A stretch of DNA of 64,000 nucleotides from an uncultured Dehalococcoidia bacterium (GTDB taxonomy: Bacteria > Chloroflexota > Dehalococcoidia > Lucifugimonadales > Lucifugimonadaceae). Position 1 is the first letter of the stretch. Each line of letters begins with the position of its first letter. Positions 20,783-30,267 of this stretch are shown here, piece after piece. Location of the stretch: positions 1,698,277 through 1,762,276 of the forward strand of contig OX638325.1 of the NCBI GenBank assembly GCA_951812795.1, written 5' to 3'. The position numbers were made by a program, and so were the translations under genes. The notes under the pieces are model-generated. The model was not told where the DNA came from. It saw nothing but the letters and a program-made list of their open reading frames with translations, and searched no databases.

Positions 20783-21178
20783 GTGGTGCGCGTCGGGTCG
20801 GTAGAACTAATCCGTGGACGGTTGCGAGCAGTCGTCCGGGTTTATGTGGAGGGGCCAAATCTAGTGAGCTGGCTTTGCCACGCTACGGTCGACACGGGTT
20901 TCTCTGAACATATGACGCTCCCTGGCGACGTCATCGACTATTTGGGGTTGCAATCGGCAGGATTCACTGAAGCTCGAATGGCGAACGATCAGGTCCAACG
21001 TTTTGATCTTTTCCACGCAGTGGCCATTTTTGGCGGTCGCATTCAAAACATCTTGGTGCATCGGACCGAATCAGAATCGCTCATTGGAATGTCGTTGTTG
21101 CAAGGTCTTGTTCTGACGATGGATGCTCGTCAAGGGGGTACGGTGGGGGTCGAACCAGCTACGGGGCCTGTGCGATGA
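20783..21178 (+). CDS. Clan AA aspartic protease (retropepsin-like)
   Basis: A 131-residue protein with the single catalytic triad D37-T38-G39 in ATVDTGFSEHMTLP and the second-half motif LIGMSLLQGLVLTMD typical of COG5550-like retropepsins, which act as dimers. It lacks signal and membrane segments. GTG start (20783 or 20786). It is preceded by its usual small companion and overlaps the next gene, a formylglycine-generating enzyme, by four bases (ATGA), so all three form one operon. Confidence 0.75.
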   Translation: MVRVGSVELIRGRLRAVVRVYVEGPNLVSWLCHATVDTGFSEHMTLPGDVIDYLGLQSAGFTEARMANDQVQRFDLFHAVAIFGGRIQNILVHRTESESLIGMSLLQGLVLTMDARQGGTVGVEPATGPVR

Positions 21179-22152
21179 CTTCTGATCCAGATCCAATTCA
21201 ATCCTGTTGTGCTCCGATCCGTGGGGAGGAGCAATCATCCGATGCGTTGGAACGTGTCCAGTGTCCTTCTGCCGAACGATCAAATGGGCAAACGGTGAGT
21301 AAATGGGTCAGCTTGTCCGGCGACGAGTTCCGGATGGGGACGGATGATCGGCGGTTTCTGGCTGATGGTGAAGGGCCGATTCGGGAAGTGTCGGTGGATG
21401 GATTCGCTATCTCACCGAATCCGGTAACGAATGCCGAGTTCGATGGGTTCGTATCCGCGACCGGTTATGTGACGGACGCGGAACGTTTCGGGTGGTCGTT
21501 TGTGTTCAAGGATTTCGTTACGTCGGAGGTTGAACGTCGGGTTACTCAGGTGGTGCAGGGATCGGAGTGGTGGTGGCGCGTAGATGGTGCATATTGGCGG
21601 ATGCCGGAAGGTCCGGGTTCGAATGTTGACGATCGGGCAGATCATCCGGTGACGCATGTCTCATGGCAAGACGCGTTGGCTTACTGCGAATGGGCCGGAA
21701 CACGGTTGCCGACGGAGGCGGAGTGGGAGTATGCGTCGCGTGGTGGTTTGGATCAGGCGCGGTTCGTTTGGGGCGACGAGTTGGAACCGGAGGGTAGGCA
21801 TATGTGCAATATCTGGCAAGGCGAGTTTCCGGGAAGGAACACCCTTGAGGATGGTTGGCATGGGACATCACCGGTGGGGAGTTTCGCGGCGAATGGTTAT
21901 GGGCTCTACGATGTGGCGGGGAATGTATGGGAGTGGTGTTCGGACTGGTTTTCGGCATCGTTCCATCGCAATGCCAGACGGATCACCAGAGATAATCCGA
22001 AGGGGCCGCGAAACGGATCGGCGAAGGTCATTCGCGGTGGCTCTTATCTTTGTCACGACTCCTACTGCAATCGCTACAGAGTGGGCGCGCGGACGTCGAA
22101 CACGCCCGACTCGAGTACCGGTAACTTGGGATTCAGGATCGTCACCGACTAA
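21175..22152 (+). CDS. Formylglycine-generating enzyme (SUMF1 family)
   Basis: A 325-residue protein of the FGE-sulfatase family, which uses copper and oxygen to turn the Cys of a sulfatase C-x-P-x-R motif into formylglycine. The C-terminal signature RGGSYLCHDSYCNRYR with both active cysteines, C293 and C298, and ARTSNTPDSSTGNLGFR matches true FGE rather than EgtB-like relatives. Other marks are GTRLPTEAEWEYASRGG and VAGNVWEWCSDW. The first 40 residues are not conserved, and GTG 21297 is a possible shorter start. It overlaps the protease gene. A substrate with the right Cys motif, the sulfatase at 4466, lies 15 kb upstream. Confidence 0.93.
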   Translation: MTSDPDPIQSCCAPIRGEEQSSDALERVQCPSAERSNGQTVSKWVSLSGDEFRMGTDDRRFLADGEGPIREVSVDGFAISPNPVTNAEFDGFVSATGYVTDAERFGWSFVFKDFVTSEVERRVTQVVQGSEWWWRVDGAYWRMPEGPGSNVDDRADHPVTHVSWQDALAYCEWAGTRLPTEAEWEYASRGGLDQARFVWGDELEPEGRHMCNIWQGEFPGRNTLEDGWHGTSPVGSFAANGYGLYDVAGNVWEWCSDWFSASFHRNARRITRDNPKGPRNGSAKVIRGGSYLCHDSYCNRYRVGARTSNTPDSSTGNLGFRIVTD

Positions 22153-23173: not shown

Positions 23174-23663
23174 CCCGGTCACGCCCGCCGATTCTTCCAA
23201 CGATGAATAACAGGCCTAAGACGATCAGGACTATTGGCCAGAATCGTCCCCAATCCCACCAACTGAAGACACCAAAGTTGACGCCGAGAAAAATCCCACC
23301 GATCACGATCAGCAGAAAACCTACCGCAACGCCAAACATTCCGCGTCGTTTCGCATGAACGCTTGTCGAGACCGCCCCAGAGGCAGTGGGCTCAGCTGAG
23401 TCGCCTTCTGCTGCGTCACAGTCGCCGCCGGCTATATCTCCATCACTGTTCGCTGGCGATGCACTGCGCGTCTCGAGTGGTCGTTCAGGCATGATGAATG
23501 TCAAAACGATGTAAGCCAGGATCGCGAGACCTCCACTAAAGATGCAGATTAGCACCCATCCGGCGCGGACTAGTACAGGGTCAATGTCGAGATACTCGGC
23601 CATCCCCCCGGAAACTCCGGTCACCATCCGGTCAGTCCTGCTCTTGTACAGTCGATCTGCCAC
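23166..23663 (-). CDS. PspC-domain membrane protein
   Basis: About 165 residues. The N-terminal PspC domain is clear (RLYKSRTDRMVTGVSGGMAEYLDIDPVLVRAGWVLICIF, core MVTGVSGGMAEYLDIDP), with one membrane segment, then an acidic linker and two C-terminal helices (GVAVGFLLIVIGGIFLG; WPIVLIVLGLLFIVG) of the DUF5668/LiaI kind. GTG 23663 is preferred: GGAGAAGG lies just upstream and the PspC homology starts at once; a longer frame runs to 23753. It is first in an operon with the toastrack protein. PspC proteins take part in responses to membrane damage. Confidence 0.82.
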   Translation of the reverse strand: MADRLYKSRTDRMVTGVSGGMAEYLDIDPVLVRAGWVLICIFSGGLAILAYIVLTFIMPERPLETRSASPANSDGDIAGGDCDAAEGDSAEPTASGAVSTSVHAKRRGMFGVAVGFLLIVIGGIFLGVNFGVFSWWDWGRFWPIVLIVLGLLFIVGRIGGRDRDG

Positions 23664-23805
23664 AGCCTTCTCCGCACCCAAGTCCCTTGGCCAATGATTT
23701 GATGATAATACCAGTCGTCTTGTCGAATGCAACTGCTTCCCGGGCCCGGACATGCGATATCATCGCTACATCTGAACACTTGCCTTTCCTGAGGAGACTC
23801 AATCT

Positions 23806-25449
23806 ATGCACTTGCTAGAAGTCTTGAACCCGGTGGCCCAGCAGCGGGGGTTGATGAATTCGTCGAAGATAAATGATCGTCCGGAGTCGCTCGACGGTCG
23901 GACTATCGGTCTAATCTGGAGCGGGACGCATGGCGGTGATGTCGCATTGAAGCGCGCTGGCGAGATGCTTCAGGAGCGGTTCAAGAATGTGCAGGTCAAC
24001 TTCTACACGGGTGGCAACTATCCGGCGCCGCCGCCGATCGTGAAGCAAGCGGGAGAGGAGTGTGACGTCGTCATCGGCGCCACTGCCGACTGAGGGACTT
24101 GTGCGTCGTGGATGGTCCACGACATGATCCAGATCGAGAAGATGGGTAAGCCCGCGATTCCCATAGTCTCCGGTCGTTTTGAAGAGGATGCGATAGCCAG
24201 CTCGAGAGCGTTGGGCATGCCGGATTTGCAGTTCGTGATCGTGCCTCGCATCTATCGAAATCTTCCCATCGATGAGTGTGTCTCACAGACTGAGGCCGCG
24301 ATCGACGACATCATAGATGTCTTGACGGTCGACAAGCAGCACGGTCGGGGTGAGCGTGATGATGTGGCGGATGTTCAACGGTTTGAGGGCGAGGACCGTT
24401 GGGACGCCATCCTGAAGATGAACGAGCAGTGGTTGATGCGGGATTGGGGCGACTCGTTCGTACTACACCCTCCGACGGTCGACGCGGTCAATGAGTTGAT
24501 AGCCGGAACGGGTTTGGACGCGGATGAGTTGATCTGCGACATGCCTCCGGGTTTCGGGTTGGCGACAGTGGAGAAGATCGCGATCAACGCGGCCATGGCC
24601 GGTGCGAAACCGGAACACATGCCAGTGATTATTGCTGGCGTCAAGGCGCTTTCGCAGATGGGATCACACGGCGGGACATCGTTGCTGATGTCGACCAGTC
24701 CGCAGGCCCCTTTGCTGATCGTCAACGGTCCGATCGCCAAGGAGATCGGCATCAATGCGCGTTCGGCACTCGGTCCAGGTCGCGACAACGAAGTCAACAT
24801 CACGATTGGCCGCGCATTTTCGCTCTGTCTTCGCAATATCGGCTACTGGTATCCCGGCCAGATGGACATGGATACTATTGGCACGACCCGCAAGTTCGTG
24901 CACTGCATCGCCGAGAACGAAGATATGAGTCCGTGGGAGCCCTTCCACGTGAACCAAGGATTCCGGGCGAGCGAAAGCACCGTCAGCGTGTTCATCACCA
25001 ACGGTGAGTTAGACGTTCAGGACCAAGGCAACACCAAGGCCGAGGACTTGCTCAAAACGCTAGCCTACGGTTCGATCTTCGGAACTCGTGGCCTCGGAAT
25101 GCATGGCGGCGGTCAGCGGCTCATCTTGATGCCGCCCGACGTGGCCGGGCCGGTGGGCGACCAAGGCTTCTCGAAGGATGATGCCCGCGGCTTCATCCAC
25201 CTCAACGCCAATCACAGCTTGGGCAAGATGATCCAGTACACCCCGCTCAAGGGCGAGGCACGGATCAGCCCGATGTGGCGCTGGCTCGAAGACTTGACGG
25301 AGAAGGAGCGACTCGAGATTGAGGTCCCGGTCGTCGACAATCCCGAAAATTGGCACATCGTTGTCGTTGGTGCCGACCGCGCGAAGACTTGTGTGATGCC
25401 GACCGGGGATGGTGTGTCGACGATAGGCATCGATCAGTATCGACCTTAA
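23806..25449 (+). CDS. UGSC-family selenoprotein (UGA read as selenocysteine at codon 96)
   Basis: Read through the TGA at 24091-24093, this is one 547-residue protein; the frame is the same on both sides with no other stop. The UGA falls in VVIGATAD-U-GTC-ASWMVHD, matching the U/C-G-S-C motif of a family of marine (seleno)proteins. A hairpin directly after it (24105-24123) fits a bacterial SECIS. The N-terminal ~180 residues are an alpha/beta redox-like domain (LDGRTIGLIWSGTHGGD; KPAIPIVSGRFEEDA). The remaining ~350 residues (for example AFSLCLRNIGYWYPGQ and RGLGMHGGGQRLILM) form a second domain of unknown function. GAGGAG precedes ATG 23806. If the UGA is not read, the gene would be split after 95 residues. 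No selenocysteine synthesis gene is in the window. Confidence 0.82.
24105..24123 (+). promoter_or_regulatory. SECIS-like hairpin
   Basis: GTCGTGGA (24105-24112) and TCCACGAC (24116-24123) pair perfectly over eight positions around TGG; if the closing A-U pair opens, the loop is AUGGU. The loop starts 19 bases after the UGA and has G in it near the 5' side, as in known bacterial SECIS elements, which would recruit SelB. It lies within the coding frame. Confidence 0.75.
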
Positions 25450-25450
25450 G

Positions 25451-25493
25451 GACGACCTCTCCCTAACCCCCTCCTCAAGGAGGGGGAGGACAC
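25451..25493. repeat. Palindromic repeat that supplies the next gene's ribosome binding site
   Basis: CTCCCTAACCCCCTCCTC followed by AAGGAGGGGGAGGAC is a member of the dispersed family; CCCCCTCCT pairs with AGGAGGGGG. It begins at the end of the selenoprotein gene. Its purine arm (25478-25489) is the only Shine-Dalgarno-like sequence before ATG 25498, at eight bases' spacing. Confidence 0.85.
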
Positions 25494-25497
25494 ACGA

Positions 25498-26031
25498 ATG
25501 AACCGCTACGTAGCATTCTTGCGCGGGTTGAATCTGGGTCGCCGTCGAATCAAGAACCCGGAGTTGTGCGCGGCTTTCGAAGATATCGGTTTCACAAATG
25601 TCGCGGCGTATTTGGCGAGCGGCAATGTCATCTTCGACGCTGATGATTCCGATAGAAAGTCGGTAGCGAGTTCGATCGAATCCGGGTTGCGGGAGTCGAT
25701 TGGTTACGAGGTTCCGACATTCTTACGCGGTGCTGAGGAGGTCAGGGCGATCGCTGAATATGCGCCGTTTGCAGATGTCACGGAAGAACGCACCGGCAAG
25801 ATGCAGGTTGCGATGGTTCGCGACGAGGTAGATGAGTCGGCGCGGGCTTCGGTGATGGAGTTGTCGAACGACGCCGATATGTTGGAGATGGTTGGACGCG
25901 AACTCTACTGGTGGCCGAAGGGAAATTTCTTGGATTCGGAGCTGGATCTGAAGGTTGTCGAAGGCGTCTTGGGGCCGGTGACGATTCGGACTAAGGGTAC
26001 GGTTGAGCGTTTGACGAAGAAGTTCTTGTGA
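25498..26031 (+). CDS. DUF1697 protein
   Basis: A 177-residue protein with the DUF1697 pattern: the opening MNRYVAFLRGLNLGRRRIK, LASGNVIFDADD at about residues 40-51, RGAEEVRAIA, and the ending TIRTKGTVERLTKKF, which resembles the conserved RNWxTxxKL stretch in relatives. Function is unknown. The start is set by the repeat-derived ribosome binding site directly upstream. After it, 26032-26236 shows no gene. Confidence 0.88.
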   Translation: MNRYVAFLRGLNLGRRRIKNPELCAAFEDIGFTNVAAYLASGNVIFDADDSDRKSVASSIESGLRESIGYEVPTFLRGAEEVRAIAEYAPFADVTEERTGKMQVAMVRDEVDESARASVMELSNDADMLEMVGRELYWWPKGNFLDSELDLKVVEGVLGPVTIRTKGTVERLTKKFL

Positions 26032-28322: not shown

Positions 28323-30119
28323 CTACGGAACTTCAAACACGGTCACGCCATGCGCCGAAATCGATTCGGTGCTCGGGTATTCGCCGCTACCTCTGTAGGT
28401 TACGTTCTCGATTCCGAGTTTCGCCATGTCCTCGATCGAAAACGTCCAGCCTTCAAATAGATGCATCGGCCACCATCCGGCATCGTAGTCAACACCTATG
28501 AACCCGTAGAGGAGAACATCCTCATTTATGCCGGTCCATTCGAGGAATTTACGTTCATGTTCGATGCCCGTTTCGACGCGCTCAATGATGTCGTCCAGCA
28601 TCCCTTCTCGTTCTGCGTCACTCATTCCTCGACCGATAGCGTCTTCGATCGATAGGCCCAAAGTTCCGGCTTCGATCTCGAACTCCCGCGGTGATCCGTA
28701 CCAACCCACGAGCGCTGCATCCTCAATGACCTTATTGTTCCCCGCGGTGAAAATATAGTTGGCGCACGCAGACATGCAGAGCTCATCGACCACCACATCG
28801 ACGTCGTTATCGTAGATCCACAGGCCGATGAAAATCGCCTGAACCACTTCGCCGTATTCGGAATTGATCCGGATGGTAGAGATGTTTTCCTCTATTCCAA
28901 CAATTGCGGAGCGAAATCGGCCAAATGCATCGGGGTTGAGGTACCCGTCGATGACAACGGTGTCGCCTTCAACGGTTATTTCGGCTGGAGGTGGTTCGAC
29001 CCATGTTCCGGTTTCGGTGTCGAGATCCGGGTTTTGCGTTGGGGTTGGTGTGCTGCCTGGAGGTGGTGCGAGGGAGGGGAGTGGTGTCGGGATCTCAGCG
29101 GGAGGAAGGGTGTCCGTCGGGACTGTGAAGACCGCTACAAGGTGATGGTGGTTTTCTAGGGCATTTTCGCTCGGATATTGTCCCTCTCCTTCATAGGACA
29201 CGTTGTCAACACCGAATTTCGCCATGTCTTCGATTGAGAAGGTCCAACCCCCGAAATGAGTATCGTCGCTGAAGTAGTAGTCGAATTGATCTGGCAAGAA
29301 GCCGTAAACCATCAGATACAGGTGGACGCCGATCGCGTCCAAGAATCGTTGTTCACCGCCATCGTCATCCGCGTCCATCTCCAGCATGGTTGCGACGAAA
29401 TCCTCTTTGGTCTCGCCGGGCGGAAGTCCGCCCCACTCCTTCAGTTCTTCGTAGTTTCGGGCGTGAAGTTCGGCTAGTGTGATGCCGTGGCCGGCGGCGA
29501 TGAATGGATCTTGTTGTTCTGAACCGTGCCAGCCGACGATGGCATTTTTTTCGATGATCTTGTTTTTGCCTGCGGTGAAGATGTAGTTGGCGCAGGATGA
29601 GAAACAGATTTCGTCAACGATGACGTCGATTTTGTGATCGAATACCCATTCGCCGATTTGCATTCCTTCATCCGTATTGCCGCCGGGTGAGTTAATGCGA
29701 ATAGCGGTGATTTGGTCCTCTTTCCCGCGGACCGCAAACAAGAAGTCGCGATAAGTTTGCGATTCGATATCGCCGACGAATGAGATGATCGTTCCTTCGA
29801 CTGTTATCGTCGCTGGATTCGGCTCGTAGTCGTACCAGATGACGCCATCTTCGTCGGGAGTCGTAGTTGGTTCGGGTGAAGGTGTCGCTGACAGCGTCGG
29901 TACGGGCGTCTCGGTGGGCGCGGGAGTTGATGTTGGCGATGGCGGCGGGGTTGGCGTGTTAGTCGATGTGGGGGTGTTGGTTGGAGCGATGGTAGGCGTG
30001 GGAATCGGTGTCGGGTCCGGGGTGGGTTGTGGAGTCGGTGTTGGGGCGGATTGGGTACATGCGACGGCCACGAGGAACGTACAGATACACAGAACAAGGA
30101 ACTTGCGAGAAAAGATCAT
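28323..30119 (-). CDS. Lipoprotein with two ClpP/COG3904-like domains
   Basis: A 598-residue protein. The lipobox is LVAVAC (C21), followed by ~80 residues of Thr/Pro repeats that would span the envelope. Two copies of a ClpP/crotonase-like domain follow (about residues 110-280 and 380-590). Each has ISTIRINS or [11 protein letters not shown], then [30 protein letters not shown], and [15 protein letters not shown] ends, separated by a second T/P linker. They resemble the periplasmic COG3904 family. The nucleophile position reads SSCANY and SACANY; catalytic activity is not certain. ATG 30119 is supported by AAGG upstream; the frame extends to 30221. Confidence 0.8.
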
Positions 30120-30267
30120 TATTTTTTCGGCCTTGAGTGAATTTACACGATAGGTCGTGACACCACTCGAGGCATACGAACCGGTTGGGCCAACGGTTTT
30201 AAGTTGGCAAATGTACTGCACGTCATCTCATTTTCGAGTCTGTTGACTAGAATCGTCGTTAGCGCTA

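Follow-up and report, generated by a model that had tools for sequence, protein, structure and literature searches.

Among the selenoprotein families of aquatic metagenomes UGSC is one of the most common and, according to the passages on it in the survey of the Global Ocean Sampling (GOS) data, the fifth most numerous in that set (255 sequences), with a higher relative frequency in samples of non-marine origin (PMC2398784); these figures contradict the description of UGSC as a rare marine family in the original prediction for the locus reported here. In the same passages the authors assumed a thioredoxin-like (Trx-like) fold for UGSC and described, from ocean metagenomes, UGSC/Unknown_1, a fusion between a UGSC selenoprotein and a domain of no known class (PMC2398784). 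The family, its selenoprotein status and a UGSC fusion have thus been known since 2008, and the gene analysed here adds one member; a 2026 review regards the functions of such selenoproteins as largely uncharacterised. A second system relevant to this locus is that of GrdB, the selenoprotein B of glycine/sarcosine/betaine reductase (TIGR01917/TIGR01918). In published grd clusters trxB is located beside grdE-grdA-grdB (PMC2897892), and the FarB/FarE pair was reported to cleave the C-F bond in fluoroacetate, evidencing that GrdB homologues can change the leaving group (PMC10838667).

The locus lies in a window of 64,000 nucleotides (the whole stretch of DNA that was analysed) from a host genome of 2.6 Mb in a single contig. 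The closest named relative of the gene product is a 99% identical protein of SAR202 cluster bacterium bin127 and, judged by sequence, the host of the gene belongs to SAR202 (Dehalococcoidia, Chloroflexota); the cultured SAR202 member Ca. Lucifugimonas marina JH1073 encodes a selenocysteine (Sec) orthologue with 68% identity. As originally described, two open reading frames, 23806-24093 (95 aa) and 24112-25449 (445 aa), share one frame, with TGA 24091-24093 and six sense codons lying between them. With the TGA read as Sec, positions 23806-25449 of the forward strand form a single open frame of 547 residues from Met 23806 to TAA 25447-25449, and the readthrough product carries U96 and C99 in the motif UGTC, the redox-type motif already pointed out. 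The features of the locus are as follows.

23806..25449, + strand: whole predicted selenoprotein gene, 547 codons plus TAA, open with TGA as Sec; orthologues share its start and its TGA.
23791..23796, + strand: GAGGAG, probable ribosome-binding site 9 nt upstream of the ATG, read directly from the sequence.
23821..24327, + strand: UGSC domain (residues 6-174), probably GrdB-like and modelled as Rossmann/flavodoxin-like (PF24696, E 1e-31; pLDDT 93; GrdB kinship).
24091..24093, + strand: UGA codon 96, predicted to be read as selenocysteine (among distinct sequences, 93 have TGA and 9 have Cys).
24100..24102, + strand: codon of Cys99, second residue of the UxxC redox pair (C in 93/93 Sec and 9/9 Cys sequences).
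24105..24123, + strand: predicted SECIS hairpin, 8-bp stem, loop UGG at 24113-24115 (core pairing, compensatory changes, synonymous-codon constraint, bSECIS rules).
24400..25446, + strand: C-terminal domain, approximately residues 199-547, unclassified (no Pfam or NCBIfam match; standalone homologues; model pLDDT 91).

A scan of 23650-25560 for promoters and terminators found none. Elsewhere in the window, 21175-22152 (+) encodes an FGE-sulfatase-domain protein with weak, below cut-off matches to the EgtB and SenA models, and 28323-30221 (-) is an ORF of 632 aa for which Pfam gave no match and NCBIfam a weak one, to a ClpP-related phage head maturation protease. The same genome contains a second UGSC/C-domain fusion (L054 3957-5621; G000:C1:1087986-1089620), approximately 45% identical and with a TGA at the Sec position.

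Across all loci fetched, codon 96 was TGA in 93 distinct homologues and TGC or TGT in nine, with no other residue, and nearly all site-covering matches among 100 relatives contained one in-frame TGA. Family searches of the host genome retrieved SelA, SelB, SelD and a tRNA-Sec with anticodon UCA. The two genomic checks proposed at the outset, on the Sec machinery and on codon 96 of homologues, where the hairpin is conserved as well, thus both agreed with the selenoprotein reading. Two observations would fit a split pseudogene, or an error in the sequencing of the TGA: the presence of two ORFs under table 11 and the finding, detailed below, that the hairpin of the single sequence is not unusual; however, the identical TGA occurs in relatives from independent assemblies, the Sec machinery is present in the genome and the codons 3' of the TGA display dN/dS values of 0.015-0.038 between species. 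Such strong purifying selection past the UGA, together with the conservation of the TGA, led to the rejection of this alternative, which had been considered unlikely from the beginning and now retains practically no probability. The stretch 23806-25449 is almost certainly a functional selenoprotein gene, the incorporation of Sec being predicted from its sequence. An in-frame TGA was also observed near the N-terminus of the host SelD, the selenophosphate synthetase (L019; G000:C1:2061686-2062615), in the motif CAGUAGK, suggesting that this protein is probably a selenoprotein too.

The proposed SECIS element is a perfect 8-bp stem (24105-24112/24116-24123) that starts 12 bases 3' of the TGA, as had been noted. 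Folding of the single sequence against its base composition gave z = -0.67, with 49 of 200 shuffles folding at least as well, so the window hairpin alone was rejected as SECIS evidence and its significance derives only from comparison. In 85 distinct UGA sequences the 7-bp core was paired in 96% of cells, vs 16-51% for slid partners and 91.3% for shuffled partners (maximum of 500 shuffles, 92.9%; same 85 sequences). Compensatory changes are seen among these sequences: G-C (74) is replaced by C-G (11) at the innermost position of the core, G-C (83) by A-U (2) at another core position, and G-C (62) by A-U (3) at the outer pair, which also has 12 A-C mismatches. Codon usage within the hairpin is also biased: among UGA sequences Ser101 is encoded by TCG in 80/82 (TCG making up 23% of the Ser codons of these genes), Leu103 by CTT in 25/26 (background 12.5%) and His105 by CAC in 72/74 (background 70%), while in the Cys homologues Ser101 is TCG in 5/9 and Leu103 is CTT in none. 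Judged from these counts, the codon choices at Ser101 and Leu103 go beyond the requirement of the protein; the nominal p-values of the bias overstate it since the sequences are related, yet the contrast between Sec and Cys forms is clear. The window hairpin falls within the published bSECIS limits (3-nt loop UGG, 19 nt, -12.6 to -14.6 kcal/mol; PMC13188914), in support of its initial interpretation as a bacterial SECIS, and the 5-nt loops of some relatives, for example CUUGU, are a poorer fit to the loop rule.

Cys forms were detected in Actinomycetota, in a Rhizobiales genome and in a Gracilibacteraceae MAG. They need four changes on the maximum-likelihood tree, and three or more of these are required by branches with good support, which on this phylogeny means that Cys versions arose at least three separate times. 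SelA over the cut-off was missing in 6/8 genomes with Cys forms and present in the 4/4 Sec-form genomes tested. In an even sample of 301 Chloroflexota genomes UGSC was found in 32, of which 31 had a strong SelA match, the lone remaining genome being fragmented (86% completeness). SelA is widespread in the phylum (243/301 genomes sampled), therefore this co-occurrence is consistent with Sec incorporation but not striking.

The assignment of the N-terminal part to UGSC was confirmed by Pfam PF24696 (110.8 bits, E 1e-31, residues 6-174; gathering score, 25 bits). The equivalog cut-off of NCBIfam NF041046 (125 bits) was reached neither by the whole protein (99.5 bits) nor by the domain alone (103.2 bits), indicating that the window protein represents a divergent UGSC subfamily. 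An AlphaFold2 model of the protein, built from a 52-sequence alignment (pLDDT 93, pTM 0.93), shows the UGSC domain as alternating beta/alpha elements, with Sec96 placed immediately N-terminal to the helix after strand 88-94, and its best fold matches are of the Rossmann/flavodoxin type (best Z 11.2). There were no thioredoxins among the fold matches listed for the whole-protein model, an absence that in itself is no proof; a sequence search of solved structures gave no match at E <= 10, and a BFVD fold search gave nothing below 0.001. As modelled, the UGSC domain is Rossmann/flavodoxin-like, unlike the thioredoxin fold supposed in 2008. A groundwater Chloroflexi MAG (JACPQD01; L135-L140 and L142) encodes at least seven UGSC fusion paralogues, several of which adjoin another kind of frame that also bears a TGA, its motif being UGTCTPACTRPAVAAAKA.

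Kinship with GrdB was evidenced by standalone UGSC selenoproteins of the same order, which matched the NCBIfam model gly_red_sel_B with E-values of 8.2e-7, 2.2e-6, 3.6e-5 and 1.9e-4, in each case over the C-terminal end of the model, which bears Sec; they also matched PrdB more weakly. A comparison by hhalign of 19 UGSC domains with a profile built from five GrdB proteins of Chloroflexota, each translated across its own TGA, gave 89% probability (E 2.4e-6) over 98 columns, with Sec aligned on Sec; the C-domain, used as negative control against the identical GrdB profile, gave 0.5%. The window protein had no match to TIGR01917/TIGR01918 and was counted as remote kin only, so for its subfamily the argument for kinship runs through the standalone relatives. 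Altogether, this evidence makes it very probable that UGSC is remotely related to GrdB/PrdB, at the selenocysteine end of GrdB. A family search found neither GrdB nor GrdE in the host genome, and a literature search, limited to matched passages, retrieved no paper linking UGSC to GrdB. One 11.6-kb Chloroflexota contig (G164:C216; L175, L201, L203, L205, L207, L209) carries three GrdB-type and three GrdE-type partners, each GrdB-type protein being read through a TGA in VATUGTCNRCGAT or UGSCNRCGAT.

The C-terminal 350 residues matched no Pfam or NCBIfam family, in line with the first description of this region as covered by no known function, but a UGSC fusion with an unclassified domain had been reported in 2008, as far as the passages of that report go (PMC2398784). 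Modelled alone, the domain reached a pLDDT of 91, and its best Foldseek match in the PDB was a fumarate hydratase (E 7.6e-5, TM-score ~0.2; best Z 5.3). Its identification as fumarate hydratase or CyuA was rejected (TM-scores ~0.2 or less and Z <= 5.0 for those entries), and hhalign probabilities of 0.4% with GrdE (PF09338) and 0.5% with GrdB gave no support to either of these assignments. The pairing of the two parts was observed directly. Many genomes encode the C-domain and UGSC separately, in adjacent genes (e.g., L062, L064, L067, L068), with the C-domain gene mostly upstream and in some cases, such as haloarchaea, downstream, while in the window gene both parts are fused with UGSC first. 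One genome of the SAR202 order contains two tandem C-domain/UGSC pairs (L063 3533-6693). The upstream position of the C-domain recalls the grdE-grdB order, by analogy only as the C-domain is not detectably GrdE.

It could be proposed that the C-domain is itself the catalyst, for instance an organic-acid lyase or hydrolase, and that UGSC merely keeps it reduced, considering that several of its polar residues are near-invariant (D216, N331, R336, D354, K363, and E370), that in some records it occurs with no UGSC match beside it, and that fumarate hydratases appear among its Foldseek matches. That fold match is, however, very weak (TM-score ~0.2), and Sec is retained in UGSC at a cost, which suggests a direct part for Sec; this possibility is thus rated as improbable, and a catalytic UGSC domain is preferred.

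The linkage to thioredoxin was observed in a tblastn search of TrxB and TrxA against all loci. TrxB is encoded near UGSC/C-domain genes in Micromonospora (L129), two Variovorax (L213, L215), Neorhizobium (L214, L246) and Roseovarius (L244), as well as in the archaeon Haloterrigena (L239). In Arthrobacter sp. ERGS1:01 (L212 4659-7833), whose pair is of the Cys form, the gene order is trxB-trxA-C-UGSC, in a Chloroflexota genome (G188, L219) trxB lies 6 nt past the match of a UGA-bearing UGSC, and in a Streptosporangiales MAG (L132) TrxA is directly downstream. In a Mycobacteriaceae MAG a single ORF of 448 aa (L130 4280-5623) comprises both TrxB and TrxA and comes just before a Cys-form UGSC fusion. 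On a plasmid of Variovorax boronicumulans, a Cys-form UGSC/C-domain fusion whose sole annotation is hypothetical protein has a TrxB-like flavoprotein (~28% identical; L215 4044-4961) encoded one gene upstream. Six of the TrxB proteins exceeded the curated cut-off and three were TrxB-like proteins below it. In total, approximately nine separate trx places occur within 2 kb among 188 loci, far more than the number of about one given by a coarse estimate from the TrxB content of the host genome; the plasmid loci had not been chosen for trx. The Actinomycetota Cys forms L129, L130, and L132 share a well-supported clade with the window protein. No trx neighbour was found for the window gene, nor by the TrxB/TrxA search over the SAR202 orthologue loci; the host genome encodes one clear TrxB-family protein. 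Based on this linkage, recycling of the UGSC/C-domain enzyme by thioredoxin is considered likely.

The annotated neighbours are largely related to the uptake and catabolism of small carboxylic acids (TctC and TAXI-TRAP binding proteins, dipeptide-type ABC transporters, CoA transferases, CoA ester lyase, PEP mutase-type lyases, aconitase X, 2-hydroxyacid dehydrogenases and DUF6282). The distant and split-form loci have no operon in common, transport permeases being the most frequent class; as no neighbour set is common to all lineages, substrates probably differ between subfamilies and one common substrate is unlikely. These neighbourhoods bear on the proposal that UGSC is a general thiol/selenol oxidoreductase or a peroxidase-like antioxidant, with the C-domain as substrate or partner domain and no bond cleavage. 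The UxxC motif is consistent with such a role, thioredoxin reductase neighbours would suit a thiol peroxidase too, and a Trx-like fold was assumed in the passages on UGSC of the 2008 report (PMC2398784); conversely, the model is Rossmann/flavodoxin-like, the domain shows kinship to GrdB and the neighbours are mostly genes of organic-acid catabolism and uptake, not stress genes. An antioxidant role is therefore rated as unlikely, albeit the strongest of the competing explanations.

The reading favoured here, that of a selenoprotein fusion acting as a GrdB-like, thioredoxin-reset two-part enzyme, is held as a whole with some preference. SelB and Sec-tRNA(UCA), aided by the SECIS at 24105-24123, would decode UGA 24091-24093, and the product would be a fusion of UGSC and C-domain, 547 residues long, that contains the redox pair Sec96-x-x-Cys99. 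From the kinship described above we infer that the UGSC domain may act as the GrdB-like catalytic half, and that the C-domain may bind a small, probably carboxylic-acid substrate, in the role that GrdE has toward GrdB. The Sec96 selenolate would attack the organic acid, with the leaving group expelled by reductive cleavage, Cys99 would resolve the selenium adduct, and thioredoxin/thioredoxin reductase would reset the oxidised Sec-Cys pair or the Se-bound product; in SAR202 the two parts would be fused and the reductase encoded elsewhere. That the reaction class is reductive cleavage is an evenly balanced proposition. More tentatively, UGSC and the C-domain could constitute a widespread, unrecognised class of thioredoxin-coupled, GrdB-like reductive-cleavage enzymes in aerobic bacteria, haloarchaea and anaerobes, in Sec or Cys and split or fused forms, in which the C-domain would represent a new fold for substrate binding.

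To our knowledge, there has been no biochemical test of any UGSC protein. What is new in this analysis is the link of UGSC to the Sec end of GrdB, the Rossmann/flavodoxin-like model, the existence of the C-domain elsewhere as a separate gene beside UGSC, and the location of the C-domain/UGSC pair near thioredoxin reductase in approximately nine separate bacterial and archaeal loci. Kinship with GrdB and trx linkage offer first concrete, testable biochemistry for this long-uncharacterised family, and the question of its function can be addressed in the cultured SAR202 strain, Ca. Lucifugimonas marina, whose cultivation paper does not mention selenium in its text. Should the proposed mechanism be correct, the breakdown of dissolved organic matter by SAR202 would be influenced by the supply of selenium.

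Compared with the known systems, the window protein shares with UGSC (PF24696/NF041046) the whole aligned domain, Sec or Cys at the matching place, the UxxC motif and a SECIS, and differs in belonging to a divergent subfamily fused to a 350-residue C-domain. It resembles UGSC/Unknown_1, likened by description only, in combining a UGSC selenoprotein with an unclassified domain, whereas the passages of that report give no host, split form or trx link (PMC2398784). UGSC lacks the N-terminal part of GrdB (PF07355) and its partner domain is not detectably related to GrdE; in common with GrdB/PrdB it has approximately 98 aligned columns around the Sec motif, a companion subunit gene mostly upstream and a thioredoxin reductase nearby. 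FarB/FarE are true GrdB/GrdE homologues of anaerobic Synergistota and differ in this from the pair described here, but, likened by description, they provide the precedent of a GrdB-type selenoprotein whose small-acid substrate has a different leaving group (PMC10838667).
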